A program made the translations under genes and the position numbers. A model generated the notes under the pieces. The model was given only the letters and a program-made list of their open reading frames with translations. It made no database searches and was not told where the DNA came from. Of a stretch of 64,000 nt of DNA, positions 7,192 to 45,282 are shown piece by piece. The stretch comes from Haladaptatus salinisoli (GTDB lineage Archaea; Halobacteriota; Halobacteria; Halobacteriales; Haladaptataceae): the NCBI RefSeq assembly GCF_020614375.1, contig NZ_CP085328.1:372001-436000 (forward strand). Reading direction: 5' to 3'. Each line of letters begins with the position of its first letter. Within the stretch, counting starts at the first letter, position 1.

Positions 7192-7986
7192 ATGGGGGAA
7201 CAGAAAAACATCGTCCAGGCCTCGACTACCACTCTTCAAATCGTGGTGGCGCTCAAACATCTCGAAGGAGCGGGTGTAACGAAACTGGCGGCACATCTCG
7301 GGCTCCCGAAAAGCACGGTACACAACCACCTCCAAACACTGTTACAGTCAGAGTTCATCGTTTTCGATGGCGAGAAGTATCGTGTCGGTCTGCGGTTTCT
7401 CGACTTCGGCGAGTTCGTTCGTGAGCGGATTCCGCTACTCGAAGCCGCGGCGGATGAACTCGACAAACTCGCCGAGGAAACCAGAGAACTTGCTCACCTG
7501 ATGATTGAAGAGCACGGGCGTGGCGTTTATGTCTCGCAGGCGAAGGGTACTGACGCGGTGAACACAAGCATCCACGTCGGAAAGCGCGTTCACTTACACC
7601 AAACGTCGGCCGGCAAAGCAATCCTCGCACATACTCCCGACGGCGAACTCGACGAGATACTTAACAGTCATGGGTTAGAGAGTAAAACCCGAGAGACGAT
7701 CACAGATAGGGACGAACTCGAGGAGGAGCTAGAGGCCGTCCGAGAACACGGATATTCATACGACGACGAAGAGTGGCACCGTGGCCTCCGCGGCGTCGCC
7801 GCACCGATTCGAGACATGGACAACAATGCCATCGGTGCCGTCAGCGTCGCGGCCCCACTCGGTCGCACACGAGAAGATCGCTACCGAACAGATCTCCCCG
7901 AAGCTGTGCTCAGCACCGCAAATGTCATTGAATTAAACATGGAGTACGAAGTTCGATCACCGCCGTTCCCAGGTAAAAACTATTAG
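7192..7986 (+). CDS. IclR family transcriptional regulator (sugar locus)
   Basis: I chose the ATG at 7192 because family similarity begins there; the frame remains open upstream to 7114. The 264-residue protein has a winged helix (VTKLAAHLGLPKSTVHNHLQTL, ~residues 20-50) and an IclR effector domain (QTSAGKAILAHTP in the middle). It lies 22 bases before a sugar isomerase gene in the same direction, so it probably shares a transcript with it and regulates the surrounding catabolic genes. The effector, perhaps a sugar acid, cannot be read from sequence. Confidence 0.9.
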   Translation: MGEQKNIVQASTTTLQIVVALKHLEGAGVTKLAAHLGLPKSTVHNHLQTLLQSEFIVFDGEKYRVGLRFLDFGEFVRERIPLLEAAADELDKLAEETRELAHLMIEEHGRGVYVSQAKGTDAVNTSIHVGKRVHLHQTSAGKAILAHTPDGELDEILNSHGLESKTRETITDRDELEEELEAVREHGYSYDDEEWHRGLRGVAAPIRDMDNNAIGAVSVAAPLGRTREDRYRTDLPEAVLSTANVIELNMEYEVRSPPFPGKNY

Positions 7987-8008
7987 CCCCGGCCGCTATC
8001 GTTCCCCT

Positions 8009-8752
8009 ATGCGAACTGCTATAAATCTCTTCACACTCAGAGATATCGACGAACCACTCCCTCGCGTACTCGAACGCGTCGCCGATGCGGGCTATGACGG
8101 CGTCGAGTTCCTTCATCGCCTCCCCGAGGCGGATACCGAAACCGTCGTTCAGACGCTCGGCGAGCAGGAACTCGCTGTCCCCGGTGCTCACCTTGGCCCG
8201 TTCACGCCACTATCGGGACTTCCGGACGAACTTGAAGCGACGATAAATATTTACGATGCCGTGGATTGCGCAACACTCTCCATCTCCATCGACGAAGAGC
8301 ATCTGGACTCATGGACGGAGGTTCGAAAGACTGCCTCACAACTCGAATCGCTGGCAGATCGAGCCAGGGAATATAATATCGACGTCCTCTACCACAACCA
8401 TCACTGGGAGTTTCGGTCGCTTGACGAATCAACGCCGTTCGACCTTCTATTTAACGCGCTCGACGATCGGATCGGCCTTGAACTCGACGTCGGGTGGGTC
8501 GCCGCCGCCGGTGACGACCCCGTCGAACGCATCCACCGCCACGCCGACGAGTTATCGATACTTCATGTTAAGGACGTCGACACGGCCGAAAAGAAGTCTG
8601 TCGAGGTCGGTGCGGGCGACGTGAATCTCGCCGCGTGCATCGACGCTGCCCGCGCCGAGGGAGTGGAGTGGTTCATTTACGAGCACGACGAGCCCGATGA
8701 CCCGGTCGAATCACTCCGCACCGGTGCCGAGTTCCTCGACAGGTTCCGCTGA
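8009..8752 (+). CDS. sugar phosphate isomerase/epimerase family TIM barrel
   Basis: The 247-residue protein is of the AP-endonuclease-2/xylose-isomerase-like fold. Metal-site segments are visible in order: VEFLHR, YHNHHWEF, LELDVGW, HVKDVD and FIYEHDEPDD. Members isomerise, epimerise, dehydrate or eliminate sugars and keto-sugars. It is closely similar to the gene at 23771-24505, sharing the start LFTxRdxDEP and the end EWFIYEHDEPDDP, so the two are paralogs. It follows the IclR gene by 22 bases. The substrate is unknown; keto-sugar chemistry is possible given the Gfo/Idh genes nearby. Confidence 0.88.
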   Translation: MRTAINLFTLRDIDEPLPRVLERVADAGYDGVEFLHRLPEADTETVVQTLGEQELAVPGAHLGPFTPLSGLPDELEATINIYDAVDCATLSISIDEEHLDSWTEVRKTASQLESLADRAREYNIDVLYHNHHWEFRSLDESTPFDLLFNALDDRIGLELDVGWVAAAGDDPVERIHRHADELSILHVKDVDTAEKKSVEVGAGDVNLAACIDAARAEGVEWFIYEHDEPDDPVESLRTGAEFLDRFR

Positions 8753-8854: not shown

Positions 8855-9988
8855 TTATGAGAGCGTCGACCATCCGAATAGCTCCTCGTAGCGGTCGACG
8901 AATCCAAGGAATTCATCGTACGTTGGCGGGTGGCCGTTTCGTACGAACCACCCGGCGACGGCGCTCCCGGCAACGAGTCGAGCACCACCGTCGATGTCGG
9001 CGAGCTCGGCGATGGCCAACCCGGCGTTGAAATGGTCACCGGCGCTGGTCGTAATCTCGGGTTCTGAGACGCGCGGAACCGCGACGCGATGTCGGTCGTC
9101 AGCGGTCGCCAGAACCGACTCCGACACCGTGTGAACGATGATTTCCGAGACCCCGAGTCGGTCTTGGAGTGCGGCGGCGACGTCGACCAGCGCGTCACCG
9201 TCAGCGTCGAGTTCGTTCGCAAGCCGAAGCGCCTCGGCGCGGTTCGCGCTCACCGTCACCGGAACGACGTCGTCGAGTGCGGATAGCGGCTCCACGCCTC
9301 GAATCAACGTCTCCGACGAGAGGCGCCGCACGTCCGCCGGGTCGACCAAGATGCGATTCGGCGGATCACGGAGACGAGGCCAGAGGTCACGGCGGAGACC
9401 CTCCCATATAGAGGGCATCTTCGGAATCGTCGCCCAGTAGCCGAGGCCGAGCAGTTCCGTTCTGTCGATCGACGCGGCCAGCGAGTTCAGTTCGACTGCT
9501 GAGCAGATGTGTTCCCAGTCGAGTTTTGCCAATCGCCGCGTGTCGCTCAGGAGCACTTTCCCGTCGTTGAACTCGACGGCGTCGGTGATCGGAGCCGAGC
9601 CGAGCGAGATCAATTTCGTCTGTTCGTACTCCCGGGTGAACGTCTCTCGTGGCGGCTCGCCGTACGTTCCGATGATCGTCGGTCGGTGGCCGAGGCGTTC
9701 CATCGCCCGACCGAGATGCGCTGTGTGGCCGCCCGCGCGTTTGCGCTCGCAGAACCATTCGATGCTACAGGAGGTATCTAGGGATGCGGCGTCGACGATC
9801 CGCGTCCCGAATTCCTCGAGCGTGTCCATTCGTTCGTAATCGTCGGGATCGAAGCGCGTTGCCACCGCCGTTCGGATGCGGTCGACGACACCATCGAAGC
9901 CGAACGCGACTTTCTGTTCTGCTAACGATGGCGGCAGAGCCTGACGACAGGCGTCAATATAATTTCGGGTTTCGGTATCGATACCCAT
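8855..9988 (-). CDS. PfkB-family carbohydrate kinase
   Basis: The 377-residue protein has ribokinase-fold features: FGFDGVVDRI at the start, the AGGHTAHLGRAMERLG glycine-rich substrate segment, and the C-terminal catalytic signature TSAGDHFNAGLA, whose Asp is the catalytic base. Enzymes of this family phosphorylate sugars, keto-sugars or nucleosides with ATP. It is somewhat longer than typical (~310) through its N-terminal extension. It is divergent from a class I aldolase gene across 249 bases, suggesting a kinase-aldolase pair splitting a phosphorylated sugar. The substrate is unresolved. Confidence 0.82.
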   Translation of the reverse strand: MGIDTETRNYIDACRQALPPSLAEQKVAFGFDGVVDRIRTAVATRFDPDDYERMDTLEEFGTRIVDAASLDTSCSIEWFCERKRAGGHTAHLGRAMERLGHRPTIIGTYGEPPRETFTREYEQTKLISLGSAPITDAVEFNDGKVLLSDTRRLAKLDWEHICSAVELNSLAASIDRTELLGLGYWATIPKMPSIWEGLRRDLWPRLRDPPNRILVDPADVRRLSSETLIRGVEPLSALDDVVPVTVSANRAEALRLANELDADGDALVDVAAALQDRLGVSEIIVHTVSESVLATADDRHRVAVPRVSEPEITTSAGDHFNAGLAIAELADIDGGARLVAGSAVAGWFVRNGHPPTYDEFLGFVDRYEELFGWSTLS

Positions 9989-10237: not shown

Positions 10238-11020
10238 ATGCGTTCAGTAGTCGATACTCCGATCAGCCGAGACGGGCGGTCAATTATTATTGCAATGGAT
10301 CACGGTCTCGAACGAGGACCGATCGTATTCGAAGATAATCCGGAGCGTGCTGATCCGTCGGCCGTGTTCGATATCGCGACCCACGACGCCGTCACTGGAC
10401 TCGCCGTCCATCAGGGGGTCGCCGAGACGTACTATCCCTCTTACGACGACTCGGTGAACCTGGTCGCAAAACTGAACGGGAAGACAAGTATGGTAATGGG
10501 CGATCGCTACTCGCCGCCGATTTGGTCGGTCGAGAGTGCCGCGGAATTGGGCGCCGACGCGATCGGCTACACAGTCTACACCGGGTCGAACCGCGAGGCG
10601 GACATGTTCTCGGAGTTCGCCGCCGCCCGCGAAGACGCTCGTGACGCTGATTTACCGGTCGTCCTCTGGTCATACCCGCGCGGACAAGGCGTCAACGACC
10701 ACAATGCCCCTGACACCGTCGCCTACGCAGCGCGGATTGGACTCGAACTTGGTGCGGATATGGCGAAGATAAAGTATCCCGGCACGCGCGAAGGTGTCGA
10801 GTGGGCCGTCCGCGTCGCGGGCGAACTTCCGGTGCTGATGAGCGGCGGTGCGTCGGTCAGCGAAGAGGCATTTCTCCGCGACGTAGCGACGTTCATGGCC
10901 GGCGGTGGAAAGGGGCTGACGGTCGGGCGAAACATCTGGCAGCGGGCGAACCCGACTGCAACGCTGGACAAACTCGAACGACTGGTGTTCGAGGACGCCA
11001 CCGTCGAAGACGTGCTGTAG
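10238..11020 (+). CDS. class I (Schiff-base) aldolase, DhnA/FbaB family
   Basis: The 260-residue TIM barrel has the DhnA-type start (IIIAMDHGLERGP), the Schiff-base lysine in GADMAKIKYPG (Lys177), and the phosphate-binding end GGGKGLTVGRNIWQR. Family members cleave fructose 1,6-bisphosphate or related keto-sugar phosphates, or make aromatic precursors. The position beside a PfkB kinase and upstream of an alcohol dehydrogenase and an isomerase in one direction argues for sugar-phosphate cleavage. It is not possible to tell FBP from, say, a deoxy- or 6-deoxy-sugar phosphate. Confidence 0.85.
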   Translation: MRSVVDTPISRDGRSIIIAMDHGLERGPIVFEDNPERADPSAVFDIATHDAVTGLAVHQGVAETYYPSYDDSVNLVAKLNGKTSMVMGDRYSPPIWSVESAAELGADAIGYTVYTGSNREADMFSEFAAAREDARDADLPVVLWSYPRGQGVNDHNAPDTVAYAARIGLELGADMAKIKYPGTREGVEWAVRVAGELPVLMSGGASVSEEAFLRDVATFMAGGGKGLTVGRNIWQRANPTATLDKLERLVFEDATVEDVL

Positions 11021-11079: not shown

Positions 11080-12150
11080 ATGAGTGAGCAAGCAACGACC
11101 GTACAGGTCGAGGAGCGCGCCGATCGGATGCAGGCGCTGGTCAATTACGAACCGGAGGGGGTCGAACTCCGCGAGGTCGAAGTGCCCGACCTCGGCGAAG
11201 CCGAGGCGCTAATTCGCGTCGAGGCGGTGGGAATCTGCGGTAGCGACATCCACCAGTGGCACGGCAGTCACAGCTGGGGGGTCAACTATCCGGTCACCCT
11301 CGGCCACGAGTTCGGCGGCGTCATCGAGGAGATAAACGGCGACGGTGAGTTCGAACTCGGCGATCGGGTCGTCTGCGAGACGGCCGCCGTCATCGACGAA
11401 AAATCGCCGCTCAGCCGTCAGGGGAAGTACAATCTCGACCCCGACCGCCTGGGCTTCGGCTACGGCGATGACGGTGCGATGGCGCGCTACGTCGCGGTTC
11501 CCGTGCGGTGTCTCCACCACGTCCCGGACGGACTGGCGTTCGAACGAGCCGCACTGACCGAACCGTGTAGCGTCGCCTACAACGCCGTCTGCCAGAACGC
11601 CGAAATCGACCCTGGCGACAGCGTCCTCGTCCTCGGTCCGGGAACGATCGGTCTGCTCTGCGTTCAGATGGCATCGCTTTCCGGCGCGAGCCACGTCATC
11701 GCCAACGGCCTGCCGGTCGACGAAGACCGCCTCGACGTCGCCGAAGAACTCGGCGCGACGGACACCGTAACCGACGACCCGTCTGAGCTGATAGCCGGTA
11801 TCGGTGACGGTCTCGGCGTCGATACCGTGATCGATGCCTCGGGTCACTCCGCAACCTTCGAGACGGCGATGGACGCCGTTCGCCCCGACGGCCACATCAC
11901 GAAGGTCGGTTGGGGGCCCCAACCCATGGAGTACAGTATGGACCCGGTGGTTCAGAAGGCGGTCACGGTACAAGGGAGCTTCTCGCATACGTGGCCGACG
12001 TGGGAGAAAGTGCTCACGCTGCTCAACACGGGCCAACTCGATGTCGAACCGATCGTCGATCGCGTCGCACCGCTGGAGGAGTGGCACGAGTGCTTCGAGG
12101 GGATGCACGACCGACAGTACATCAAATGCGTCCTGACCCCGAACCGATGA
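11080..12150 (+). CDS. zinc-type alcohol/sugar dehydrogenase (MDR family)
   Basis: The start at 11080 (MSEQATTVQVEE) was chosen because it follows the aldolase by 59 bases and precedes family similarity; the frame is open further upstream inside the aldolase. The 356-residue protein has the catalytic zinc ligands in GICGSDIHQW and LGHEFGG, and a nucleotide-binding segment VLVLGPGTIGLLCVQMA. The four-Cys structural zinc loop is absent: residues after VCETAAVIDEKS contain none. This resembles sorbitol/threonine-dehydrogenase-like enzymes oxidising sugar alcohols or sugars with NAD(P). It is probably co-transcribed with the aldolase and the next isomerase. Confidence 0.85.
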   Translation: MSEQATTVQVEERADRMQALVNYEPEGVELREVEVPDLGEAEALIRVEAVGICGSDIHQWHGSHSWGVNYPVTLGHEFGGVIEEINGDGEFELGDRVVCETAAVIDEKSPLSRQGKYNLDPDRLGFGYGDDGAMARYVAVPVRCLHHVPDGLAFERAALTEPCSVAYNAVCQNAEIDPGDSVLVLGPGTIGLLCVQMASLSGASHVIANGLPVDEDRLDVAEELGATDTVTDDPSELIAGIGDGLGVDTVIDASGHSATFETAMDAVRPDGHITKVGWGPQPMEYSMDPVVQKAVTVQGSFSHTWPTWEKVLTLLNTGQLDVEPIVDRVAPLEEWHECFEGMHDRQYIKCVLTPNR

Positions 12151-12195: not shown

Positions 12196-13092
12196 ATGCC
12201 CCTCGCCGCGTTCCCGAAGTGCTACCTCGGCCGGCTGGTGGACGGAGAGATGAGTCTCGAGGAATGGTTCGACGTCGCCGCCGACATCGACGTTGACGGA
12301 GTCGAGTTCTACTGGGGCATCACACCGGCGGACGACCGTGAAGAACTCGATCGCCTCAGATCAGCCGCAAGCGAGCGAGGACTTTCGATTCCGATGATGT
12401 GCTACTCTCCGGACTTCACACATCCCGACCCGGAAGTGCGACGGGAGGAGGTCAAACAAGAAAGACGAGCCATCGAAGCAACCGCCCGTCTCGGTGGCGG
12501 TTACTGTCGCGTGCTCTCGGGGCAGCGACGACCCGATGTTTCCCGAGAAGAAGGATTGACGTGGGTGAGCGACTGCATCGACGAACTGCTCTCTCACGCT
12601 GCCGACCACGAGGTAACGCTCGTCCTCGAGAATCACTACAAAGACGACTACTGGAACCACCCCGAGTTCGCCCAGCAGATGAACGTGTTCCTCGACCTGC
12701 TCGATCGCATCGACGAGAGCCCATGGTTCGGTGTCAACTACGACCCTTCGAACGCCATCATCGCCGGTGATGATCCGATTGAACTACTCGATGCTGTCAA
12801 AGAACGCGTCGTCACGATGCACGCTAGCGACCGATATCTCGAAGGCGGAACGGTCGAGGATCTCCGCGAGATGGAAGCCGAAGGCGGGGAGGGATACGCC
12901 GACATCCTCCAGCACGGCGTCGTCGGCGAGGGGATGATCGACTATGACGCCGTGTTCTCGCTCCTCGACGAGGCGGGCTTCGACGGCTGGATTTCCATCG
13001 AAGACGGGTACAACGCCAAGAAAGGGAAAGAGCATCTTGATCGTTCTGCGCGATTCCTCCGCGAGAAGATGGCCGAACACGGTCTGTCGTAG
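12196..13092 (+). CDS. sugar phosphate isomerase/epimerase family TIM barrel
   Basis: The 298-residue protein is a longer member of the xylose-isomerase-like fold. Metal-site motifs are LVLENHYKDDYW, FGVNYDPSNA, TMHASDRYL and GWISIEDG. It begins 45 bases after the dehydrogenase stop, as the third gene of a kinase-facing aldolase-dehydrogenase-isomerase run. It differs clearly from the two shorter paralogs at 8009 and 23771. Candidate activities are ketose epimerisation or keto-sugar processing; the sequence does not decide. Confidence 0.86.
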   Translation: MPLAAFPKCYLGRLVDGEMSLEEWFDVAADIDVDGVEFYWGITPADDREELDRLRSAASERGLSIPMMCYSPDFTHPDPEVRREEVKQERRAIEATARLGGGYCRVLSGQRRPDVSREEGLTWVSDCIDELLSHAADHEVTLVLENHYKDDYWNHPEFAQQMNVFLDLLDRIDESPWFGVNYDPSNAIIAGDDPIELLDAVKERVVTMHASDRYLEGGTVEDLREMEAEGGEGYADILQHGVVGEGMIDYDAVFSLLDEAGFDGWISIEDGYNAKKGKEHLDRSARFLREKMAEHGLS

Positions 13093-13247: not shown

Positions 13248-14114
13248 TCAGTCGTTCGAAGTACTTTCGCTACCCTCCACCAGTTCGAACATGCAGCCCT
13301 GCTCGACGTGATGAACCGGCGTACCGGGGAATGCATCGTCGAGGTGTTCGGCGAGCAATTCGATGCTCCGCACCTCACTGGTCGCGTGATTGACGACGAC
13401 GACCGGCACGTCCGCGTCGACCGCGACGTGCCCGTCCCGCCAGTAGGTGAACCCGTCGTCGGAGCAGACGACCATGTCCGGGTCGTACGCGTCGAACATG
13501 TGTCGGAAGGGCGTGATAGCACCAGTGCCGACGACGATTCGCGAGACGGGAGTTTCCCTGTCGCCGAGCAGTTCTACCGCATTCTGACCGACGTCCTGAA
13601 CCGAACTGGCGATTCCGCGAGCCGCCTCTCTGGCGGTTCGCTCGTCGACTTCGTAAACGCGGTAATAGTCGCCGCTCCCAAACGCTGCGGGCGGCACCGG
13701 CATCTCTCCTGCAGTCACTTCATCGGCTTCCGTGAAGTCGAGGTGGTGTCCCCATGCGTCCGGAACGCCGATCTTCGGGTATTGATCCCAGAGGTCGTGG
13801 CACCGGAGGATCACGAGGTCGTGTTTCTCGATGAACGCTTGCTTCTCGTCGATCAACTCGACGACGCTTGGCGGATGGTTCTCTCGAATCGGCTCCGCTT
13901 CGTGATCGTAGTACGTGCCCTCGTGGGTGACGAAGAGGTTGCAGCCGAGTTCGACGGAGCGTTCGAGGGCCCACGCGTAACTCATCCAGCCGACCGCGAC
14001 GCCTTCAACCTCTGCGTTCGGGTCGCCTGCCTTGAACGTATCAACCGTGTCGTCCCAGTCCACCCATCCCCCGTCGAGCGACCGCAGGTAGTCGCGAATC
14101 TCGCTCGCCTTCAT
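13248..14114 (-). CDS. Nif3-like (DUF34) dinuclear metal protein
   Basis: The 288-residue protein shows the Nif3/DUF34 layout with an early metal site (CNLFVTHEGTYYDHE) and a late one (VVVNHATSEVRSIE). The family forms ring-like hexamers with two metals; its reaction is not firmly known. The ATG overlaps the stop of the GH38 C-terminal gene by four bases (ATGA at 14111-14114), so it is translationally coupled to the split glycosidase. That context suggests a role in sugar metabolism rather than the housekeeping role usually proposed. Confidence 0.82.
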   Translation of the reverse strand: MKASEIRDYLRSLDGGWVDWDDTVDTFKAGDPNAEVEGVAVGWMSYAWALERSVELGCNLFVTHEGTYYDHEAEPIRENHPPSVVELIDEKQAFIEKHDLVILRCHDLWDQYPKIGVPDAWGHHLDFTEADEVTAGEMPVPPAAFGSGDYYRVYEVDERTAREAARGIASSVQDVGQNAVELLGDRETPVSRIVVGTGAITPFRHMFDAYDPDMVVCSDDGFTYWRDGHVAVDADVPVVVVNHATSEVRSIELLAEHLDDAFPGTPVHHVEQGCMFELVEGSESTSND

Positions 14115-15649
14115 GTTCGCCCCCTAAAGGTGAGACGAACGACGCGCACCGTCCGCGGGTCGATATCGACTACAACGCAGTCGTCGTCCACGTCGAGTGC
14201 CGGACCGTCCATCTCTTCGCCTAGCACCCCCACTGCTCGCGCGCCCGTAATTTCGAGCACGCCGGAGGCGACCGTCGCGGTTCGGGCGTCGTCGCTCGCG
14301 TTCAATAGACCGACCTCGACCTGGCCATCGAGGGTAGTCTCGTCGGCGACCGCGTCCGGGTCGAGGAAGGCGTCCGCCCTCCCCGCTGGTCGGACGAAGA
14401 GCACCAGCACGGGCGGCTCGGGAAGGTCAAACCAGTGGCCGGAACGAGGGAACTTCGGCGATGCTCCCCCCTCCACGAGCGGCTGGGCGAACACGTTCCA
14501 GTGATCCGCCTCCGCGCCCGCACGGTGGGCACGCGCCTCGTCGAAGCCACCCTCGTGAGGCCGGAGGTGGTACCGCGCCCTGACGACGCCCGGTTGGTGT
14601 GCGCGGAAGTTCGTATTATAGTAGTTCGTCGCAACCCACCCGAGCACCAGCGCCTGGTCAAGCGAGAACTCCTCTCGATTCTTCCCGAAGTGGAAATCAC
14701 CGAACTGAATGAGGGGATTCAGCGGACATCCCACCGTCATCCCTCGCTCGTCGTTCGACAGTTCCGTCCAGCGCTGGACGGTGTAGAAGTCGCGGTTACA
14801 ACCCGAAAGCTGGTCTCGCCCGGGCCGCATCGCCTGCCCGCCGACGTCAACGTGCGCTTCTGGGTCTGAGAGCGAAAGAGGAAACGCGAGGTACGTTGAG
14901 GACGGATGCGTGCACCGACCCTCCTCCCAGGTCGCCTCGACCACGACGTTGCGACCTTCGTCGGGAACGAACACCCGGAGATCAACGGCACTGTCGAGGC
15001 CGGATACCGTCAACGACTGCCGGACATCGTACCCTAGTGGCGTCCGGTAGACTCGGTGGGCGGTGACGCGCTCTGGGCCGTACCGCTCCGCTCGCCAGTC
15101 AGGCTGATAGCCCAATCGAGGGGACTCCCACGGTTCTAACCCCCGATCCTCCACGAGCCCCGGAGCCGCATTCCAGAGACCGTTCGGATTGGCGTCCCCA
15201 GCCTCCGGAGCGCGAAATAGTTGATCCCGTGGTGCCTCGTGGTTCTCATCTGCCAAGCGCTCTCGGACGACGCCGGCCACCGGGTACTCGGCCGTCTCGT
15301 CGACCCACTCGCAGTCAAGGTGTTTATCCCACCATCCGCCGATGCCGCCGCGCTCCCGGTCGAACGTAATTCGGAACGCATCGGTCTCGACGGTTCGCCG
15401 TTCGTCGGACGGCCACCCTTCGTTCGACAGTAATTCGTCGACAGGGACGACGGTGTATCCGTTCCCTGGGACTTCGGTTCGGGGAAGCAGGTACGCATTG
15501 TCGTTGAACGCCCGGTCTTGCCAGTGTCGGGCAGAAAGTTCGTCATCAGGCTGTCCCCGAGCGTTGATGGCGTACTTCGAGACGGGGCCGGAGACCGTCC
15601 GATCCCACGGAAGCGGATTCGCGACGAGAACCCCCGAGTAGTCGGTCAT
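14111..15649 (-). CDS. GH38-like alpha-mannosidase, C-terminal half as a separate protein
   Basis: I start this gene at the ATG at 15649 (MTDYSGVLVANPLPWDRT), not further upstream, because it overlaps the stop of the preceding gene by four bases (ATGA). The 512 residues are all-beta in character and match the region that follows the catalytic barrel in GH38 enzymes: the NPLPWDR strand, then GGIGGWWDKHLDCEWVDE, then long beta-sandwich segments. No catalytic-domain motif is present. It presumably assembles with the product of 15646-16887 to form one enzyme. No signal peptide is seen, so it acts in the cytoplasm. Confidence 0.8.
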   Translation of the reverse strand: MTDYSGVLVANPLPWDRTVSGPVSKYAINARGQPDDELSARHWQDRAFNDNAYLLPRTEVPGNGYTVVPVDELLSNEGWPSDERRTVETDAFRITFDRERGGIGGWWDKHLDCEWVDETAEYPVAGVVRERLADENHEAPRDQLFRAPEAGDANPNGLWNAAPGLVEDRGLEPWESPRLGYQPDWRAERYGPERVTAHRVYRTPLGYDVRQSLTVSGLDSAVDLRVFVPDEGRNVVVEATWEEGRCTHPSSTYLAFPLSLSDPEAHVDVGGQAMRPGRDQLSGCNRDFYTVQRWTELSNDERGMTVGCPLNPLIQFGDFHFGKNREEFSLDQALVLGWVATNYYNTNFRAHQPGVVRARYHLRPHEGGFDEARAHRAGAEADHWNVFAQPLVEGGASPKFPRSGHWFDLPEPPVLVLFVRPAGRADAFLDPDAVADETTLDGQVEVGLLNASDDARTATVASGVLEITGARAVGVLGEEMDGPALDVDDDCVVVDIDPRTVRVVRLTFRGRT

Positions 15650-34032: not shown

Positions 34033-34051
34033 ATCTCTTAAGAATAATACC

Positions 34052-37895: not shown

Positions 37896-38888
37896 ATGGA
37901 ACGTGGAGCGAGTTATTTCGGTGTGAGGGACCTCCGTCACGTCGAGAACGACCTCGATAGATTCGCGGACGAGGGATTGAACGCGATACTGCACACGTAC
38001 AGCGAACGCGACCAGACTTTTTACGAGGAGACGATGGCGGACATCGTCGCCGCGAGCAACGACCGCGGGTTCACGACGTACGTCAATCCGTGGGGCGTCG
38101 GAAAAGTGTTCGGCGGCGAAGCGTTCTCCCAGTTCATCGCAAAACATCCGGAGACCCGCCAGCGTATCGTCGGCGGTTCCAAGGAACACGCCGCGTGCTT
38201 CAATAACCCCGGATTCCGGGCGTTCGTACGCGAATGGACCGAATCCGCCGTCGGGCTAAATCCGGATGTTATCTTCTGGGACGAACCGCACTGGATCCTC
38301 CCGGAGTGGTTCGACGACGACCAACCGGACGACGCGTGGGTCTGCCGGTGTGCCCACTGTCGAGAGCGCTACCGCCGAGAGCACGACAGGCCGATGCCCG
38401 TCTCGGAGGACGACACCGTCCGCCAGTTTCGTGAAGACTCGCTACTCGACTTCCTCGACGAACAGATGGCGATCGTCGACGAAGCAGGGGTGGATAACGC
38501 GGTATGTCTCGTCCCCGTCTCCGATGCAGACCACGGTATCACGGATTGGGAGCGCCTCACGGCAAACGACCACATCGACCTCATCTCGACCGATCCGTAT
38601 TGGGGGCTGTTCGCCGACGACGACGTCGAGGGGTTCGTCCGCGAATCCGTCGAACGCGTAACCGACCTGGCGAACGCGAACGACCTCCGCAGTCAGATCT
38701 GGATCCAAGGATTCGGCCTCGACGATGAGGAGGAAACGTACGAACACATCCGGACGGCGACTCAGGGTTCGGTCGAGGGCGGTGTGGACAGCGTGTTCAT
38801 GTGGGGGTACGACGGCTGTCGTTCCATCTCATCCATCGCCTCCGAGAACCCCGACGCGGTTTGGCAGACGTACCTAGATGCGTTGTAG
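37896..38888 (+). CDS. glycoside-hydrolase-like TIM barrel protein, function unknown
   Basis: The start at 37896 (MERGASYFGVRDLRHVEND) is preferred over the long upstream open frame, which is unlike coding sequence. The 330-residue product looks like a GH-type TIM barrel: GLNPDVIFWDEPHWILPEWF places acidic residues at a strand end, and a Cys loop (WVCRCAHCRERYRREHD) resembles those of several putative glycosidases. ISTDPYWGLF and DSVFMWGYDGCR follow. There is no signal peptide. I could not assign a GH family. Its position between the importer and acid-sugar genes suits oligosaccharide cleavage. Confidence 0.7.
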   Translation: MERGASYFGVRDLRHVENDLDRFADEGLNAILHTYSERDQTFYEETMADIVAASNDRGFTTYVNPWGVGKVFGGEAFSQFIAKHPETRQRIVGGSKEHAACFNNPGFRAFVREWTESAVGLNPDVIFWDEPHWILPEWFDDDQPDDAWVCRCAHCRERYRREHDRPMPVSEDDTVRQFREDSLLDFLDEQMAIVDEAGVDNAVCLVPVSDADHGITDWERLTANDHIDLISTDPYWGLFADDDVEGFVRESVERVTDLANANDLRSQIWIQGFGLDDEEETYEHIRTATQGSVEGGVDSVFMWGYDGCRSISSIASENPDAVWQTYLDAL

Positions 38889-38921: not shown

Positions 38922-40301
38922 TCACTCCCACGCGTCGGTCCCGTCCCGAACACGAACGAAATAGTCGGTACCGCCAAGTTGGCCACCCTTCAGCGCGATT
39001 TCGATGCCGTCGAACCGTCCGGTCCGCGAGTGGGCAGTGCAGAGCGGACTCCCGGGTGCGAGCGGAAACCGCGTCTGTAGGGCGTACACGTCGAGTGCCG
39101 GCGTCACATGTCCGCAGGTATCTCCACCGGCGACGCAGACGCGGTCGATCTCGGTTCGGTCGAGCAACCGACGCAGGAGAGCGCCTTGCTCGTCCCCGAT
39201 GAATTCGCCGACATTATCTGGGGGATTGATGGCTTCCCGCGCGCGGCGTTTCGTCTCCTCGATCGCCTCGTCATCAGAACCGTGCGCCGTGTACAGGACA
39301 ACGCTATCGCCGCGGTCGAGCGCGTTCAGAGCATCCTCGAACGCTCGCTCGCGCGCCGCGTCAGCGGTTTCCGGATCGATCAGATTTGCGGTGTCGATGC
39401 GAACGCCAGTGAATCCCGCATCGAGCGCCGCGTCGATTTGGGCCGCCGTGAGCGGTGATGCGCTGCCGGACATCACGATTAGTTGGTCGACAGGGGCCAG
39501 GGAATCGAACTCGGGCGTTCGGTCGACGATGCCCGCCGCCCGCCAGTAATCGGCGAGGGCGTACTGGAATCCAGAAGAGCCTACGACGAACGAGGGTTCG
39601 TCGCGGTTGTCCCCGTACGTCTCCCAGATCACGCCACCGGTCGTTCTCAGATGGTCGTCGTCGAGGCCGTCGAGGAACACGATCTCCGCGCCCTCGCGGA
39701 CCGTCTCTACGAGTTCGTGTCTCGTTTCCTCCAGTCCTTCGTCGACGGTGAGCACGTCGACGAGACCCATCGACCGATCCGTCTGCTTCGAGAGGTGGCG
39801 GCGCAGGTCGCTCTCGTCCATCGGCGTCATCGGGTGATCGCGCATCGTCGGGTGGCGATCGAGGCGGTACACGTCGTCGATATCCTCCGCGAACATGTTG
39901 CCGAAGATGACGTACCGTCCGAGCGGCGGAGCCGCCGCATGAACGGGCACCGCGTCGTTTTCGAAGATATCGGTCGCAATGCCGATAGCCCGACCGATGT
40001 TACCGATATCGGGCGCGGAGTCGAACGTCGAGCAGATCTTGTAGTGGACGAGCGGTGCATCGAGGGCGGCGAGCGATTCGAAGACGGGCGGTAGCGCATC
40101 GTTCATCGTCGCGGGCGTCATCGACCGACTGGTGCCGGCGACGCCGACGGCGTCTGCGTCGGGAAACTCCCGCTCGATCGCCTCCGAGTTCGGCGGATCG
40201 AGGAAGAGGACGGTCTCGATCCCCGACCGGGCGAGCGCGTCCATAGCGTCGGTCGATCCAGTCACGTCGTCGCCGTAGAACGCGAGAAGCAGATCGTCCA
40301 T
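38922..40301 (-). CDS. four-carbon acid sugar kinase family (DUF1537, OtnK-like)
   Basis: The 459-residue protein starts with the family signature FYGDDVTGSTDAMDAL, has a central linker, and ends with a nucleotide-binding domain (RVCVAGGDTCGHVTPALDVY, IALKGGQLGGTDYF). Known members phosphorylate 3-oxo-tetronates, threonate, erythronate or related acids with ATP. It is divergent from a class II aldolase gene, and this is the classic partner: kinase, then aldolase or decarboxylase. It probably handles a sugar acid produced by the oxidoreductases. Confidence 0.88.
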   Translation of the reverse strand: MDDLLLAFYGDDVTGSTDAMDALARSGIETVLFLDPPNSEAIEREFPDADAVGVAGTSRSMTPATMNDALPPVFESLAALDAPLVHYKICSTFDSAPDIGNIGRAIGIATDIFENDAVPVHAAAPPLGRYVIFGNMFAEDIDDVYRLDRHPTMRDHPMTPMDESDLRRHLSKQTDRSMGLVDVLTVDEGLEETRHELVETVREGAEIVFLDGLDDDHLRTTGGVIWETYGDNRDEPSFVVGSSGFQYALADYWRAAGIVDRTPEFDSLAPVDQLIVMSGSASPLTAAQIDAALDAGFTGVRIDTANLIDPETADAARERAFEDALNALDRGDSVVLYTAHGSDDEAIEETKRRAREAINPPDNVGEFIGDEQGALLRRLLDRTEIDRVCVAGGDTCGHVTPALDVYALQTRFPLAPGSPLCTAHSRTGRFDGIEIALKGGQLGGTDYFVRVRDGTDAWE

Positions 40302-40493: not shown

Positions 40494-41147
40494 ATGACCG
40501 ATTCAACGTCACTCGGAGACGAGCGAGCGAAGGTGGGAGAACTCGGGCGGGAGATGCTCGCGCAGGAATTGACCAAGGGCACCGGCGGGAACGTGAGCGT
40601 CAGATCGGACGACCGTTTCGCCATCAGTCCGTCGGGCGTGCCGTACGAGGACGTCACGGCCGAGTCGGTTCCGGTCGTCGACCTCGACGGCGAGCGACTC
40701 GAAGGTGACCTGAAACCGTCGAACGAGACGCCGATGCACGCGGTCATCTATCGGGAACGAGACGACGTCGGAGCAATCATCCACACTCACTCGCCCTACG
40801 CGAGTACGTTCGCTAGCCTGAACGAACCGATTCCAGCCTCCCACTATCTGATCGCCTACGCCGGAACCGAGATTCCGGTCGCGGGCTACGAGCCGCCGGG
40901 AACGACGGCGCTCGGCGACCTCGCAATGAATACGATGGGCGACAATCACGACGCCGTCTTGTTGAAGAATCACGGCGTCATAACCGTCGGTAAGACGGGG
41001 GCGGACGCACTCGACGTCGCGCTCATGGTCGAGTATTGCGCTCGAATTCACTATCAGGCGATCAACGTCGGCGAGCCTGCGATACTCCCTGACGAGGCGG
41101 TAGAAGACCTCCGGAAGATGTTCAAGACCGACTACGGCCAGCAGTAG
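40494..41147 (+). CDS. class II aldolase/adducin family (fuculose-phosphate aldolase or OtnC-like)
   Basis: The 217-residue protein has the zinc site of the family: HTHSPYASTFASLNEPIP provides two His, and LLKNHGVITVGKTGADAL a third near the end. TGGNVSVRSDDRFAISPSGVPYED is the phosphate-binding segment. Members cleave fuculose or rhamnulose phosphates or decarboxylate 3-oxo-tetronate 4-phosphate. The divergent OtnK-like kinase favours the last possibility. The product feeds triose or dihydroxyacetone phosphate to central metabolism. Confidence 0.88.
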   Translation: MTDSTSLGDERAKVGELGREMLAQELTKGTGGNVSVRSDDRFAISPSGVPYEDVTAESVPVVDLDGERLEGDLKPSNETPMHAVIYRERDDVGAIIHTHSPYASTFASLNEPIPASHYLIAYAGTEIPVAGYEPPGTTALGDLAMNTMGDNHDAVLLKNHGVITVGKTGADALDVALMVEYCARIHYQAINVGEPAILPDEAVEDLRKMFKTDYGQQ

Positions 41148-41229: not shown

Positions 41230-41895
41230 ATGTGCACGAAAGTCTGTTTCTTCCATACAGTCGCAAGTCTCTCCGAGCGATTCGACGATTTGGCGGCGGA
41301 GTACGTTCCCGACGTCGATCACTTCCACGTCGTTGACGAGAGCGTTCTAAATGATGCGTTGGAAGCGGGCGAACTCACTCCCGCCGTCAACAGGCGCATC
41401 TGCTCGCAGCTCTCACTCGCCGAAGATGCCGGGGCGGATTTGATCCTTGATACGTGCTCAAGTACGTCTCCGGCCGTGGACATCGCCCGTGAGATGGTCG
41501 ACGTACCGATTCTCAAAATCGATGACCCGATGACCGAGGCGGCGGTAGAACACGGCGAAGACATCGCGATCCTCGCGACAGCGGAGTCGACGATAGGACC
41601 GAGCGCGGAACTCGTCCAGCGGAAAGCCGACCAACGGGCAACAGAGATCAACCTCTGGACGAAACTCGTTGATGAAGCTCTCGACGCTCTCCAGAGCGGT
41701 GAGAAAGATCGCCACGACCGGCTGGTAACCGACTGCGCGGTCGAATTGGCCGACGCGACGGACGTCATCGTACTCGCACAAGCGTCGATGAGCCACCTAG
41801 CACCTAGTCTCTCTAATCGTGTTTCCGTTCCAGTACTTTCTAGCCCGGACAGGGCCATGGAAACCGTCGCCGAAGAAGTTGGAAATTCCTCATAA
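41230..41895 (+). CDS. Asp/Glu/hydantoin racemase-like protein
   Basis: The 221-residue protein looks like the Asp/Glu racemase superfamily: one catalytic Cys in ADLILDTCSSTSPAVDIA and a possible second near LVTDCAVELADATDVIVLAQASM, with the ILKIDDPMTEAAVEHG strand. Members include racemases, isomerases and decarboxylases of acids. It follows the class II aldolase by 82 bases in the same direction, consistent with acid-sugar catabolism. A TATA-like string (41207-41215) precedes it closely. The reaction is unknown. Confidence 0.72.
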   Translation: MCTKVCFFHTVASLSERFDDLAAEYVPDVDHFHVVDESVLNDALEAGELTPAVNRRICSQLSLAEDAGADLILDTCSSTSPAVDIAREMVDVPILKIDDPMTEAAVEHGEDIAILATAESTIGPSAELVQRKADQRATEINLWTKLVDEALDALQSGEKDRHDRLVTDCAVELADATDVIVLAQASMSHLAPSLSNRVSVPVLSSPDRAMETVAEEVGNSS

Positions 41896-42015: not shown

Positions 42016-42702
42016 ATGACGAGAATCAACGCGCTCGTGATAGGGGAAAACACCTTTCCGTTTCATGCGCTCGACGAAATGGCACCGCACATCAATGCCG
42101 TCCTCAGCGATGTCGCTGATGCGGAGCTAACTACAGACCGAACGCGTCTCGAAGACCTCTCAGGCTACGACATCGTCGTCGACTACCTCACGGACAGCAC
42201 GCTCACCGACGAGCAGTACGCGAGTCTTCAGTCGTTCGTCGCAGACGGCGGCGGCTATCTCGGTATCCATTGCGCAGCAGATCTCACGAGTACGTCCGAC
42301 GGTAACGGCGGTATCAAGACGCGGGAAGAACCAATTCCGGAGTTGCGCGAACTTCTCCGCGGACACTTCGTGGATCATCCCGAACAATCGATGTTCGGCG
42401 TCGATCTCAGGAACGGTGATCATCCCGTTACTGCGAACGTCGCTGACTTCGAAGTGTTCGATGAACCGTACCAGGTGGACTTCGACAATGAGGAGGTTCA
42501 TGTCCTCGCCTGGATGGATCACCCTGACTTAGACCGGAATCCTGTCGTCTGGGTGCGTGAATACGGCGACGGCCGCGTTTGCTACTCCTCGCTCGGCCAC
42601 ACCGTCGATGCGTTCGAACACGAGCAGCATGGTCGTCTCCTCCGGAATGCCGTTCGGTGGATCGCCGATGCCCAAAACGGCCAGAACATCGACACTCCGT
42701 GA
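42016..42702 (+). CDS. ThuA domain protein (2)
   Basis: The 228 residues match the ThuA fold: YDIVVDYLTDSTLTDEQ, then LQSFVADGGGYLGIHCAAD, and near the end VVWVREYGDGRVCYSSLGHTVDAF, with the conserved His. It is diverged from the ThuA protein at 22920. The gene is convergent with a Gfo/Idh gene 131 bases away, as seen in ThuA/ThuB-type sugar oxidation loci. It may act on a keto-sugar; this is inference. Confidence 0.85.
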   Translation: MTRINALVIGENTFPFHALDEMAPHINAVLSDVADAELTTDRTRLEDLSGYDIVVDYLTDSTLTDEQYASLQSFVADGGGYLGIHCAADLTSTSDGNGGIKTREEPIPELRELLRGHFVDHPEQSMFGVDLRNGDHPVTANVADFEVFDEPYQVDFDNEEVHVLAWMDHPDLDRNPVVWVREYGDGRVCYSSLGHTVDAFEHEQHGRLLRNAVRWIADAQNGQNIDTP

Positions 42703-42833: not shown

Positions 42834-43934
42834 TTACTCCACAACTCCTTCCGGGAATGTCCGCGGGAGGGGTACCGGCCGCTCGCAGTCGGAGTCAAGA
42901 GTAATGTGTTGACTCTGATCGGAGGATTCCCGGATACCGGACAGAACGTCGAAAACATGGCGGGCAAGTTCGCCGCTGGTTCGTTGGGTCCAGTCGGTTC
43001 GAAGCGCATACGCCATGTCGGCCACGCCGGCACCTCGCCCACCCGTATAACTGTGGGTGAGCGGAACTGTTTCGAATTCATCACTGTTCCCCTCTCGTAC
43101 GCTAACGGGCCCCTCGAAGTGGTTCGGATCGGGGAGACTCAGAGTTCCTTCTGTCCCGTGAATCTCGAAGGCTGGTGATGGGAACGTCGAACCATGTACG
43201 TCGAAGCTGAATAAGAGGTTGGCCACGGCACCACTCTCGAAGTCGACAACGCCGGCCTCGTGAGTCGGAACCTCGACGTCGATACGCTCGCCGCGTCGAG
43301 ATTTACTCGTGATCGTACGCTCCTCAAATCCCCGAGCTACGGATCCGGTGATCCTGCTCACAGGACCGAGGAGAGATACGAGGGCCGTTACGTAGTACGG
43401 TCCGATATCGAACAGGGGGCCGCCACCACGCTGGTAAAAGAAGTCGGGATTCGGATGCCAGCGTTCGTGGCCAGGGGATGTCCAAACGGCTGTTGCTCCG
43501 ATCGGCTCACCGATACGACCATTGTCAATGATCGACCGGCAGGTTTGCAGGCCTGCTCCGAGGAACGTATCCGGTGCTGATCCGACGAGTAGGTCCTCTG
43601 CGGTGGCCATTCGGAGTATCTCCTCGACCTCTCCGACGGTCGTAGCCAGTGGTTTCTCGACGTAGACGTGTTTGCCTGCGTCGAGTATCTGTCGGCAGGT
43701 TTTGGCGTGAGCGCCGGGTGGAGTCAGATTGACGATGAGTTCGACGGCCGGATCGTCGAGTAACTCCTGTACGTCGTACGCGGTAACGTCGTACTCGTCG
43801 GCTTTCATCTTCGCCCGCTCCGTATCGATATCTGCGCACGCGGTTACGTCGAACGCGTCGAATGTATCACCGGTAGAAAAGTATTCGTCGCTGATGGTGC
43901 CACAACCGAGGAGGCCTACGTTAACACTCTCCAT
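42834..43934 (-). CDS. Gfo/Idh/MocA family oxidoreductase (3)
   Basis: The start at 43934 (MESVNVGLLGCGTISDEYF) is chosen because the dinucleotide fold begins there. The 366-residue protein carries the EKP motif in HVYVEKPLATTVGE and FDIGPYYVTALVSLLG in the substrate domain. A weakly coding-like stretch with an internal stop lies upstream in 43935-44205 on the same strand (VPVDATPEQIAQVSRMDSN), perhaps the end of a lost gene. The substrate is unknown. Confidence 0.87.
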   Translation of the reverse strand: MESVNVGLLGCGTISDEYFSTGDTFDAFDVTACADIDTERAKMKADEYDVTAYDVQELLDDPAVELIVNLTPPGAHAKTCRQILDAGKHVYVEKPLATTVGEVEEILRMATAEDLLVGSAPDTFLGAGLQTCRSIIDNGRIGEPIGATAVWTSPGHERWHPNPDFFYQRGGGPLFDIGPYYVTALVSLLGPVSRITGSVARGFEERTITSKSRRGERIDVEVPTHEAGVVDFESGAVANLLFSFDVHGSTFPSPAFEIHGTEGTLSLPDPNHFEGPVSVREGNSDEFETVPLTHSYTGGRGAGVADMAYALRTDWTQRTSGELARHVFDVLSGIRESSDQSQHITLDSDCERPVPLPRTFPEGVVE

Positions 43935-44205
43935 ACGAAACCATCTCGAAGAAGGGTAATGAAAATACTGGTACGGCGAGCCATTCAGGCTTCGCTCCGG
44001 CACTCTCCCAACTCTCCGGGCGGGTGTAGTATCGACGTCGGGCCAACATTCGCGAGGAACGGATTCGCAGGGGCGGATTCAACAAGCTCGATTAGAATCC
44101 ATGCGAGAGACTTGCGCGATCTGCTCCGGGGTCGCATCCACAGGTACGCGCTCGAAGTCCCGTCGAAACGACCGTCGGCTTCCACCCCGTGAGTCTGTCT
44201 CGAGG

Positions 44206-45282
44206 TTACTTCTCTACGTGCACGGTTTCTCGTCTGCGTCCCGCCCGGTAGATGGCTTCCATCGTACGCATATCCGTAAGCCCGTGCTGCCCATCAGGAA
44301 TCAGCGGTTCGGATCGGGTGAATCGATCGGCGAAATAATCGAACTCTTCGCGCATTTCGTCAACCTGCTCGAGGGAGAGCTGTACGGTAGTTTCCGAGCG
44401 GGTGAGTTCTAGTGAACACTTACCGGCGAATACCGGATCGAGGTTGATCTGACCTTCCGTTCCGGTTATTTTGAGCTGTGAGTCCACGTGGGCGTTCTGA
44501 CTCGCGGTGCAGACGGCGTGAGTCCCGTTTTCGAACACTATGGTGTAGGCGGAGCGCTCGTCAGGGACGTCGTCGAACGCCTCGTGAAACGATCCGACTT
44601 GAGCGGTCACGGTGACTGGATCGCTCCTCAGAAGGAACCGGAGCGTATTGATCGGGTATATTCCCAAATCCATGACGGAGGTACCGTACCCGGTAAGTTC
44701 GGATTCGAGCCGCCATTGGTTAGGGTCCGAGAACATATCGAGAAGTATCTGAGAGTTGGCACCGTACGCCTGAACAGCATCGCCGATAAAGCCGTCGTCG
44801 ATTAACGCCCGAGCTTGACGAATCGCCGGTTGCGTCTGCATTCTGTAGGCAACCATGAGCGGAACGTCTTTCGAGTTACAAACGTCAACGAGTCGTTCAG
44901 CACGTTCGACGGTCGCTTCCATCGGTTTCTCACAAAGAACTCCTTTTCCGAGTTCTGCGGCCGTCTCGGCGTATTCGAGATGTAGCGCGTTCGGGGTTGC
45001 GATATAGACAGCGTCGTACGCTTCCTCGGCTGCGCCACCGTGGAACTCCTCATAGGTTATCGCGTGATCGATCGTGTCCGCGTGCCCGGCTATCTGTTCG
45101 GCCTTCTCTTTCGAACTGCTAACGACGGTCGTCGTGACACAGAGTTCCGAATTCTTCACAGCCGGAATTACGGCGTCGACGGTCCACCAGCCCAGCCCGA
45201 TTAGTGCGAACCTGACCGTCTGATCGGTGGTTTTCTGCCAATCTCGGCGAGTAACGCTATCTATCCATTCCGTGACATCCAT
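44206..45282 (-). CDS. Gfo/Idh/MocA oxidoreductase, D-xylose 1-dehydrogenase-like (4)
   Basis: The start at 45282 gives MDVTEWIDSVTRRDWQ, the N-terminal extension also found in haloarchaeal Gfo6/XacA-type D-xylose 1-dehydrogenases. FALIGLGWWTVDAVIPAV, then GVLCEKPMEATVERAERLVD and PLMVAYRMQTQPAIRQAR, support that subgroup. The 358-residue enzyme would oxidise an aldose at C1 with NADP, giving a lactone that opens to an aldonic acid. Which sugar is used is inference. It is the last gene of the sugar locus. Confidence 0.85.
   Translation of the reverse strand: MDVTEWIDSVTRRDWQKTTDQTVRFALIGLGWWTVDAVIPAVKNSELCVTTTVVSSSKEKAEQIAGHADTIDHAITYEEFHGGAAEEAYDAVYIATPNALHLEYAETAAELGKGVLCEKPMEATVERAERLVDVCNSKDVPLMVAYRMQTQPAIRQARALIDDGFIGDAVQAYGANSQILLDMFSDPNQWRLESELTGYGTSVMDLGIYPINTLRFLLRSDPVTVTAQVGSFHEAFDDVPDERSAYTIVFENGTHAVCTASQNAHVDSQLKITGTEGQINLDPVFAGKCSLELTRSETTVQLSLEQVDEMREEFDYFADRFTRSEPLIPDGQHGLTDMRTMEAIYRAGRRRETVHVEK

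Follow-up and report, generated by a model that had tools for sequence, protein, structure and literature searches.

In bacteria, the last few years have brought an understanding of how sugar bonds are cleaved without hydrolysis, by oxidation and elimination. Here we describe a gene cluster that looks like an archaeal form of this chemistry. It lies in a stretch of 64,000 nucleotides from Haladaptatus salinisoli (contig NZ_CP085328.1, positions 372,001 to 436,000), here called the window, where it occupies positions 7192-45282, about 38 kb. The original prediction, made from the sequence of the window, had named four Gfo/Idh genes, three TIM barrels and the relic of another, two ThuA genes, an FAD oxidoreductase, two glycosidases, a sulfatase and an Opp-type importer. 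All of these gene classes were recovered between 7192 and 45282 by Pfam (the TIM barrels as AP_endonuc_2, the oxidoreductase as FAD_oxidored, the glycosidases as GH38 and GH97), and the relic proved to be real in a tblastn search (17096-17369).

In the Agrobacterium system GlycDH-AtOGE-AtHYD-Gfo, as far as the accessible part of PMC10628242 describes it, C3 is oxidized by the flavoenzyme GlycDH. The window shares with this system Gfo oxidoreductases and an OGE-like TIM barrel whose metal site has identical residues, all within one cluster, and a second TIM barrel, TIM-B, that is faintly AtHYD-like. It differs in that C3 oxidation is probably carried out by a Gfo protein, and in being archaeal, with a large set of importer and glycosidase genes and with a DUF1537 kinase and aldolases added. 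The levoglucosan system LgdA-B1-B2-C of Bacillus smithii (PMC7676230) likewise comprises a Gfo dehydrogenase, a TIM eliminase, a second TIM barrel, a second Gfo protein and an ABC importer. The window holds many more genes, and none of its Gfo proteins reaches the NCBIfam cut-off for levoglucosan dehydrogenase (NF052479, 97 bits or less; cut-off 650). The DgpA proteins, known from the C-deglycosylation of puerarin by DgpA-DgpBC (accessible part of PMC8563793), are the closest solved relatives of Gfo2, one of the four Gfo proteins; TIM-A and TIM-C of the window, in contrast, match AtOGE in sequence. No Pfam match to a DgpB-type beta subunit was found among the cluster proteins scanned, a set that did not include all small open reading frames (ORFs). 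YcjQ-YcjR-YcjS of E. coli, with functions as annotated, resembles the cluster in having a Zn dehydrogenase, a TIM barrel and a Gfo protein, but the active site of YcjR reads ELDH where TIM-A and TIM-C have HHDH. The mannitol/sorbitol route of Haloarcula hispanica (accessible part of PMC11519228) shares with the window a ketohexokinase, a class I aldolase, a dehydrogenase and an IclR-type regulator. The window, however, has an Opp-type transporter and not a CUT1 transporter, and an aldolase that scores 186 bits against the archaeal class I fructose-bisphosphate aldolase model (cut-off 430). None of the scanned cluster proteins is a second PfkB kinase.

We found no paper joining haloarchaea with 3-keto elimination chemistry; since subscription journals lay mostly outside the search, this is not proof of novelty. 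The word 'archaea' is absent from the accessible text of PMC10628242, PMC7676230, PMC8563793 and PMC10066097, and a study of glycosaminoglycan use by haloarchaea (PMC13260240) has, in its accessible part, no Gfo protein and uses beta-elimination for polysaccharide lyases. An archaeal branch, if true, would widen the known range of oxidation-elimination cleavage, would assign a role to genes that in haloarchaea currently carry the name sugar phosphate isomerase or Gfo/Idh oxidoreductase, and would provide salt-tolerant enzymes for glycosides that are resistant to hydrolases.

Eliminase-type TIM barrels and the Gfo proteins

TIM-A (8009..8752, plus strand) lies 22 nucleotides behind an IclR-type regulator gene, and TIM-C (23771..24505, minus strand) adjoins Gfo2. 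For both proteins the top sequence match in the PDB is 8BVK (1e-23 for TIM-C and 2e-18 for TIM-A). This entry is AtOGE, a 3-keto-O-glucoside beta-eliminase with the ligands His132, Asp163 and His189 and the base His134 (accessible part of PMC10628242). The next matches were 8TCx entries for TIM-C and 8TCx together with other uncharacterised entries for TIM-A, and DgpC chains were not among the PDB sequence matches of either protein. The 8TCx entries presumably belong to a Nature study of 2024, which reportedly deals with an oxidation-elimination pathway of the gut. In the alignment, AtOGE residues H132, H134, D163 and H189 are all kept in TIM-A and TIM-C. The combination H, H, D, H is present in 103 of 107 OGE-like rows, including these two; the exceptions are the rows of loci L080, L093, L099 and L201. 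In seven outgroup rows, which represent four kinds of protein (TIM-B; TIM-D, a TIM barrel encoded elsewhere in this genome and in two related clusters; a hydroxypyruvate-isomerase-like protein; and YcjR), the four positions hold E, then H or L, then D and H. TIM-B stands there as three orthologs and one duplicate entry, near-duplicate rows having been dropped only if identical. A tree of 114 rows places AtOGE, TIM-A and TIM-C together on a side with 108 rows (100/99) and leaves TIM-B outside. By family, tree and active site, TIM-A and TIM-C are thus candidate Mn-type O-glycoside beta-eliminases. Of 195 genomes sampled from the order, 100 contain a TIM-C homolog at E <=0.001. The Glu at the position of AtOGE His132, as in ordinary isomerases and epimerases (PF01261), is found in TIM-B and not in TIM-A or TIM-C; as a marker of type it rests on the four kinds compared, AtHYD not among them. 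The idea that all three TIM barrels are eliminases was rejected, since neither TIM-B nor the relic agrees with it.

Gfo2 (24507..25625, minus strand) matches 51 PDB sequences at 1e-10. The best are DgpA (3e-45), DgpA1 (7e-39) and an unspecified dehydrogenase (6jw6, 1e-22), and levoglucosan dehydrogenase 6a3f is the sixth (6e-21). DgpA forms 3''-oxo-puerarin (accessible part of PMC8563793). Against E. coli YcjS, annotated as D-glucoside 3-dehydrogenase, Gfo2 scores 135 bits (30% identity), Gfo1 64, Gfo3 48 and Gfo4 47 bits. A DxGxH motif is present in YcjS, in Gfo2 (DIGVHIID) and in Gfo1 (DSGSHVVD; 21251..22276, minus strand), and DxGxY in Gfo3 (DIGPYYVT; 42834..43934, minus strand) and Gfo4 (44206..45282, minus strand). 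Catalytic residues have been proposed as E103/H193 in LgdA and E95/H185 in LgdC (accessible part of PMC10066097). Gfo4 passes the NCBIfam cut-off for the D-xylose 1-dehydrogenase Gfo6 (NF041392, 587.7 bits; cut-off 350), against which Gfo1, Gfo2 and Gfo3 reach 102 bits or less. A Tyr in the Gfo motif is a mark of C1 enzymes. Because of their relatives, their motifs and the Gfo6 match of Gfo4, at most two of the four Gfo proteins are C3 candidates; a role of all four at C3 was discarded, Gfo4 passing the Gfo6 cut-off and Gfo3 being of the Tyr type. Judged by homology, Gfo2 is a candidate glycoside 3-dehydrogenase of the DgpA/YcjS-like kind. Gfo1 is conserved and of the His type, and its closest NCBIfam model is IolG (114 bits, cut-off 355). 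The FAD-dependent oxidoreductase (FADox) had no PDB sequence match at 0.001.

Gfo2 and TIM-C are an operon pair, the ATG of TIM-C lying 1 nucleotide past the Gfo2 stop. A Gfo gene was found within 5 kb in 11 of 16 regions around TIM-C homologs (L085-L100, picked blind to Gfo from the middle of the TIM-C match list and hence not random) and, within 5 kb of the centre, in only 1 of 15 controls cut from these contigs, of which one was too short to give a control (Fisher, 0.0006). Region L096 was scored as having none for its first TIM barrel, although the second TIM barrel there has a Gfo gene. The Gfo and TIM labels at these loci, like those behind the tree, the other locus counts, the Halegenticoccus soli loci and the second cluster on C7, come from profiles built on the window's own genes and their matches. 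None of seven lone TIM-C paralogs among the top matches has a Gfo gene within 5 kb. That TIM-C is simply a core gene was considered and rejected: by these counts and the tree its closest relatives beyond such clusters mostly stand by themselves, but the cluster copy is coupled to Gfo2. Among 108 entries with an eliminase-type TIM barrel, TIM-D lies within 6 kb in five (two apparently from the same genome), four of them with at least two Gfo genes, and candidate four-enzyme sets occur in haloarchaea, though few. ThuA has a role in 3-keto-disaccharide breakdown. A ThuA gene stands within 6 kb of an eliminase-type TIM barrel in 10 entries, including the window and two doublets; the window carries two, ThuA1 (22920..23678, plus strand) and ThuA2 (42016..42702, plus strand), both identified by Pfam.

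A second cluster with an eliminase-type TIM barrel was seen elsewhere in the source genome (C7:168858-179544; L065 8859-19545), with five Gfo ORFs, another TIM barrel and an ABC ATPase. Similar arrangements exist in genomes G149 (L084) and G092 (L094).

Conservation of the cluster in haloarchaea

Five clusters from three families were compared, those of the window, Haladaptatus halobius, Haloprofundus halobius, a Haloprofundus-like genome (G149) and Halomontanus rarus. Absence of an ortholog refers throughout to the stretches read (tblastn, 1e-5), which for Halomontanus was 49 kb. On plasmid NZ_CP085337.1 of Haladaptatus halobius the block is found in the same gene order with 66-99% identity and two extra genes, TIM-D and an alpha-glucosidase, between the homolog of the 37881..38888 protein and the DUF1537 gene. 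A rearranged cluster is present in Haloprofundus halobius (NZ_CP083667.1), G149 and Halomontanus rarus (NZ_CP119797.1), where 15 genes recur within about 53 kb, 46 kb and 28 kb, respectively. Since the block recurs in order in Haladaptatus halobius and 15 genes recur rearranged elsewhere, the cluster is a conserved unit, beyond chance. The original prediction had proposed a comparison with other Halobacteria, and the gene set recurs in the relatives named. From the five clusters a minimal set of genes can be read off, open to testing in a haloarchaeon with tractable genetics.

The genes common to all five clusters begin with the IclR-type regulator (7192..7986, plus strand; Pfam IclR_C), whose start, like that of Gfo4, was taken from the Haladaptatus halobius annotation; these two starts coincide with the cluster ends given in the original prediction, 7192 and 45282. 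The others are TIM-A (59-89% identity), a NIF3/DUF34-like gene (13248..14114, minus strand; Pfam; the G149 copy is cut by the border between two fetched stretches), both parts of the GH38 enzyme, FADox (17512..19650, plus strand; PF12831; 61% in Halomontanus), Gfo1 (63-97%), the family 5 solute-binding protein (SBP_bac_5; 31025..32866, plus strand; Pfam), the OppB, OppC, OppD and OppF genes for two permeases and two ATPases (33031..37385, plus strand; Pfam), the 37881..38888 protein, the DUF1537 kinase and the class II aldolase. Ketohexokinase (Khk), class I aldolase (LacD), Zn-dependent alcohol dehydrogenase (ZnADH), TIM-B, amidase, Gfo2, GH97, universal stress protein (Usp) and racemase are found in four clusters, all but that of Halomontanus. 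ThuA1 is 91%, 79% and 64% identical in the clusters of three relatives and 40% in Halomontanus. Orthologs of TIM-C and Gfo3, and of ThuA2 at full length and high identity, occur in Haladaptatus halobius alone. Haloprofundus halobius matches Gfo4 at 61% and the sulfatase at 77%; the G149 sulfatase matches at 25% only.

Part of a sixth cluster was detected in Halegenticoccus soli on two loci of 16.7 kb each, with Gfo2 (74%) and TIM-C (68%) as a pair, TIM-A (70%) and Gfo1 (87%); FADox matches there at 35%. At 1e-60, FADox is found in 13 of 392 genomes of the order, partial or split in 9 of them. The cluster is therefore rare, since only four of the 392 genomes match FADox at full length (the source genome, G186, G149 and G224).

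Proposed route and alternatives

We consider it fairly probable, at about 0.6, that the cluster is a haloarchaeal module by which an imported oligosaccharide is cleaved intracellularly, in part through oxidation at C3 with NAD and a beta-elimination that depends on Mn. The Opp-type importer would take up an oligosaccharide or glycoside. GH38, GH97, the sulfatase and the 37881..38888 barrel may then trim the substrate, presumably in the cytoplasm. Gfo2, and perhaps also Gfo1 or the FAD enzyme, would oxidize a glycosyl unit at C3 with NAD. TIM-A and TIM-C would abstract the proton at C2 and eliminate the leaving group, so that a 2-hydroxy-3-keto-glycal is formed. Either TIM-B or TIM-D, which is chromosomal, may hydrate or epimerise this product, which could then be reduced by Gfo1 or be converted by the DUF1537 kinase and the class II aldolase to triose phosphate. 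Gene content, conservation, the operon pair and the family and active-site match of Gfo2, TIM-A and TIM-C are observed. Import, oxidation and elimination are proposed from homology and conserved residues, and the later steps and the substrate we infer.

Several observations weigh against this route. AtOGE is a long branch in the 114-row tree and was flagged by a warning of the program, and we are aware of no archaeal AtOGE-like member whose activity has been assayed. Two of the four Gfo genes, Gfo3 and Gfo4, resemble C1 enzymes, and no assured hydratase for a four-step route is found in the cluster. TIM-A of the window has no Gfo gene within 5 kb. Halomontanus matches Gfo2 at 28% only, and three of the five clusters lack an ortholog of TIM-C, its best match there being TIM-A. 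The 80 loci found by a TIM pattern alone comprise 30 with a Gfo gene within 5 kb, 41 with none and 9 that were too short. Rows with the full signature number 46 with a nearby Gfo gene and 47 without, so that the eliminase signature also occurs independently of a neighbouring Gfo gene.

The same genes could serve ordinary sugar catabolism, in which GH38, GH97 and further glycosidases hydrolyse all bonds, Gfo proteins oxidize free sugars at C1 or reduce, and TIM barrels are isomerases. Two aldolase modules (Khk/LacD and DUF1537/class II) would convert ketoses to triose phosphates. The Gfo6 match of Gfo4, the Tyr motif of Gfo3 and the isomerase-type site of TIM-B agree with this, as does Haloarcula hispanica, where ketohexokinase and class I aldolase serve fructose and an IclR-like regulator acts on sugar-alcohol uptake and oxidation (accessible part of PMC11519228). 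We nevertheless regard it as unlikely, as it does not account for the eliminase signature in two TIM barrels, of which one is coupled to a DgpA/YcjS-like Gfo protein. The proteins do not fall strictly among C1 aldose or inositol dehydrogenases and ordinary isomerases, an outcome that the original prediction had named as fatal to it, because Gfo2 groups with C3 glycoside dehydrogenases and TIM-A and TIM-C group with AtOGE. Quite unlikely is an epimerisation resembling YcjQ-YcjR-YcjS, where Gfo would oxidize C3 of the glycoside, TIM-B would epimerise, the Zn dehydrogenase would reduce and a glycosidase would cleave afterwards. The three families are all in the cluster, and besides the 135 bits between Gfo2 and YcjS there are matches of TIM-B to YcjR (26% over 220 amino acids, 28 bits; rank 44 among the Foldseek matches) and of ZnADH to YcjQ (26% over 249 amino acids, 44 bits). 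The scores of TIM-B and ZnADH are weak, however, with other families scoring higher, and the Halomontanus stretch keeps TIM-A and has no match to TIM-B or ZnADH.

Cyclitol breakdown, resembling the inositol route with IolG, IolM, IolN and IolO, is very improbable. IolG is the best NCBIfam model of Gfo1, ZnADH reaches 180 bits against IolM, third after two threonine dehydrogenase models, and a creatininase-family protein of the Halomontanus cluster matches IolN with 34 bits, third after creatininase and MftE. These scores stay far under the cut-offs (355, 450 and 245 for IolG, IolM and IolN), TIM-B reaches 34 bits against IolO (cut-off 300), and glycosidases and an Opp-type importer would be unexpected in such a pathway. 

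The keto-glycoside pathway of the original prediction is thus supported in part, for Gfo2, TIM-A and TIM-C, by their relatives, residues and operon. It finds no such support in Gfo4 and Gfo3, which look like C1 enzymes, in TIM-B with its isomerase-type site or in the relic, which is hydroxypyruvate-isomerase-like.

TIM-B (12196..13092, plus strand; site E-H-D-H) gave mixed matches. With its model (pLDDT, the predicted local distance difference test, 81), Foldseek placed IolE, Art22, tagatose 3-epimerase and UlaE ahead of AtHYD (rank 35), so that epimerase, dehydratase and hydratase are not told apart by the fold matches. In sequence, AtHYD is the second PDB match of TIM-B (5e-5 over 177-275). 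An AtHYD segment scores 42 bits for TIM-B, 33 for TIM-D and almost nothing for TIM-A or TIM-C, and this segment is the part pre-aligned with TIM-B and thus favours it. Since fold and sequence matches are mixed, TIM-B and TIM-D may each be a hydratase, an epimerase or an isomerase.

TIM-D has a copy at 74% identity on contig C1 of the source genome. There, at about 2717200-2727100 (L115 5211-15084), a run of genes encodes a CUT1-type importer (MalK-type ATPase, two permeases, SBP_bac_8), a DgpA/YcjS-like Gfo protein (49% to Gfo2), a 237-amino-acid ORF without Pfam match, TIM-D and a second Gfo protein. TIM-D is found at 1e-50 or better in 135 of 195 genomes, and among the matches listed it starts no more than 5 kb from a Gfo2-like gene in 63 of the 116 genomes having both. 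No description of this pair was found in the literature, in which no search was aimed at the pair alone. A broader proposal, tentative and rather unlikely, is that 3-keto-glycoside chemistry is a general mode of haloarchaeal sugar use. It would comprise a chromosomal operon (CUT1 importer, Gfo2-like protein, TIM-D and second Gfo protein) and plasmid-borne extensions, of which this cluster would be one, whose keto-sugar would pass through DUF1537 kinase and class II aldolase directly to triose phosphates and not be reduced to glucose.

The DUF1537 kinase (SBD_N/NBD_C; 38922..40301, minus strand) and the class II aldolase (40494..41147, plus strand; Pfam) accompany TIM-A in all five clusters. 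Against the NCBIfam models for kinases and a decarboxylase of 3-oxo-isoapionate or 3-oxo-tetronate, the kinase is OiaK-like and stays below the cut-offs for OiaK (479 bits, cut-off 700) and OtnK (205, cut-off 350), and the aldolase stays below that for OtnC (100 bits, cut-off 250). The closest models of the aldolase are ribulose-1-phosphate and fuculose-1-phosphate aldolase, at 220 bits each and short of the cut-offs (300 and 264). An apionate pathway, considered from the OiaK match, was excluded, the match being below cut-off and the aldolase scoring higher for ribulose/fuculose-1-phosphate aldolase than for the decarboxylase. Khk (8855..9988, minus strand; Pfam, 445 bits), the class I (DeoC/LacD) aldolase (10238..11020, plus strand), ZnADH (11080..12150, plus strand) and TIM-B had no match in the 49-kb Halomontanus stretch, so that this module seems dispensable and Khk and the class I aldolase look like an add-on. 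LacD and ZnADH score below every NCBIfam cut-off. Of the two modules that the pathway had been predicted to feed, DUF1537/class II stands with TIM-A in all five clusters, and Khk/LacD in four.

Glycosidases, substrate and genome setting

The GH38 enzyme is encoded by two overlapping ORFs (14111-16887), one for the catalytic N-terminal part (15646..16887, minus strand; Pfam GH38N, 2.7e-15) and one for the C-terminal part (14111..15649, minus strand), which matches neither Pfam nor NCBIfam; the overlapping NIF3-like gene follows. A sequencing frameshift as cause of the split was ruled out, as the two-ORF GH38 is also annotated in Haladaptatus halobius, Haloprofundus halobius and Halomontanus, which makes three families. 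The GH97 glycosidase (25854..27641, plus strand) was identified by Pfam, and the sulfatase (29177..30709, plus strand) by Pfam and its CxPxR motif. GH38, GH97 and the alpha-glucosidase of the relatives suggest alpha-linked sugars as substrate, and the sulfatases suggest that some substrates are sulfated. An orthologous sulfatase is missing from two of the five clusters, yet every cluster has a gene of the sulfatase family inside it or no more than about 12 kb away (annotated in or near those of Haladaptatus halobius, Haloprofundus halobius and Halomontanus). The substrate may therefore be sulfated.

The protein at 37881..38888 (plus strand) had no Pfam or NCBIfam match and no PDB sequence match better than 0.05. 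Its glycosidase-like TIM-barrel model (pLDDT 76) retrieved many glycosidase and epimerase barrels with Foldseek at low TM-score, and going by this model it is possibly a new glycosidase family. Halorussus halophilus and Haladaptatus caseinilyticus have homologs at 55-58%, and genes encoding anhydro-N-acetylmuramic acid kinase and PIG-L deacetylase are found no more than about 12 kb from these. Just downstream, at 38888-38922, the window is without the TIM-D and alpha-glucosidase genes that both Haladaptatus halobius (L122 39354-42069) and Haloprofundus halobius carry at this site; G149 has an alpha-glucosidase (60%) and no TIM-D there. The relic (17096..17369, plus strand) corresponds, in two overlapping pieces, to the N-terminal approximately 95 amino acids of a TIM barrel resembling hydroxypyruvate isomerase, of which Haloprofundus halobius has an intact copy (tblastn, 3e-21).

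Further genes, not listed in the original prediction, include, besides the NIF3-like, Zn dehydrogenase and 37881..38888 genes, an amidase (19748..21238, minus strand), 12 nucleotides behind Gfo1, Usp (22348..22791, minus strand; Pfam), an Asp/Glu racemase family protein (41230..41895, plus strand; Pfam) and a DUF1450 mini-gene (28971..29180, plus strand) that overlaps the sulfatase start by 4 nucleotides. The mini-protein has the motif CCLRRCGVC, and its pairing with a sulfatase is also seen in Haladaptatus halobius, Haloprofundus halobius and Halegenticoccus soli; might it be a sulfatase helper?

The source genome measures 5.04 Mb in 8 contigs, of which the stretch belongs to C2 (372001-436000), a large replicon; the contamination estimate of the genome is 5.4%. 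Gfo/Idh genes are common in general, with 21 matches in this genome. GC content is 0.58-0.65 across 8-28 kb of the window and 0.48-0.55 across 1-8 kb. Left of the cluster lie a DUF772 transposase gene (5269-6363) and a weak sulfatase-like fragment (6408-6734, minus strand; 29% over 112 amino acids). The transposase, like orf463 and an aconitase gene on the right flank, had no match in the stretches of the relatives compared (tblastn, 1e-5). At the site matching the fragment, Haladaptatus halobius carries a sulfatase gene.

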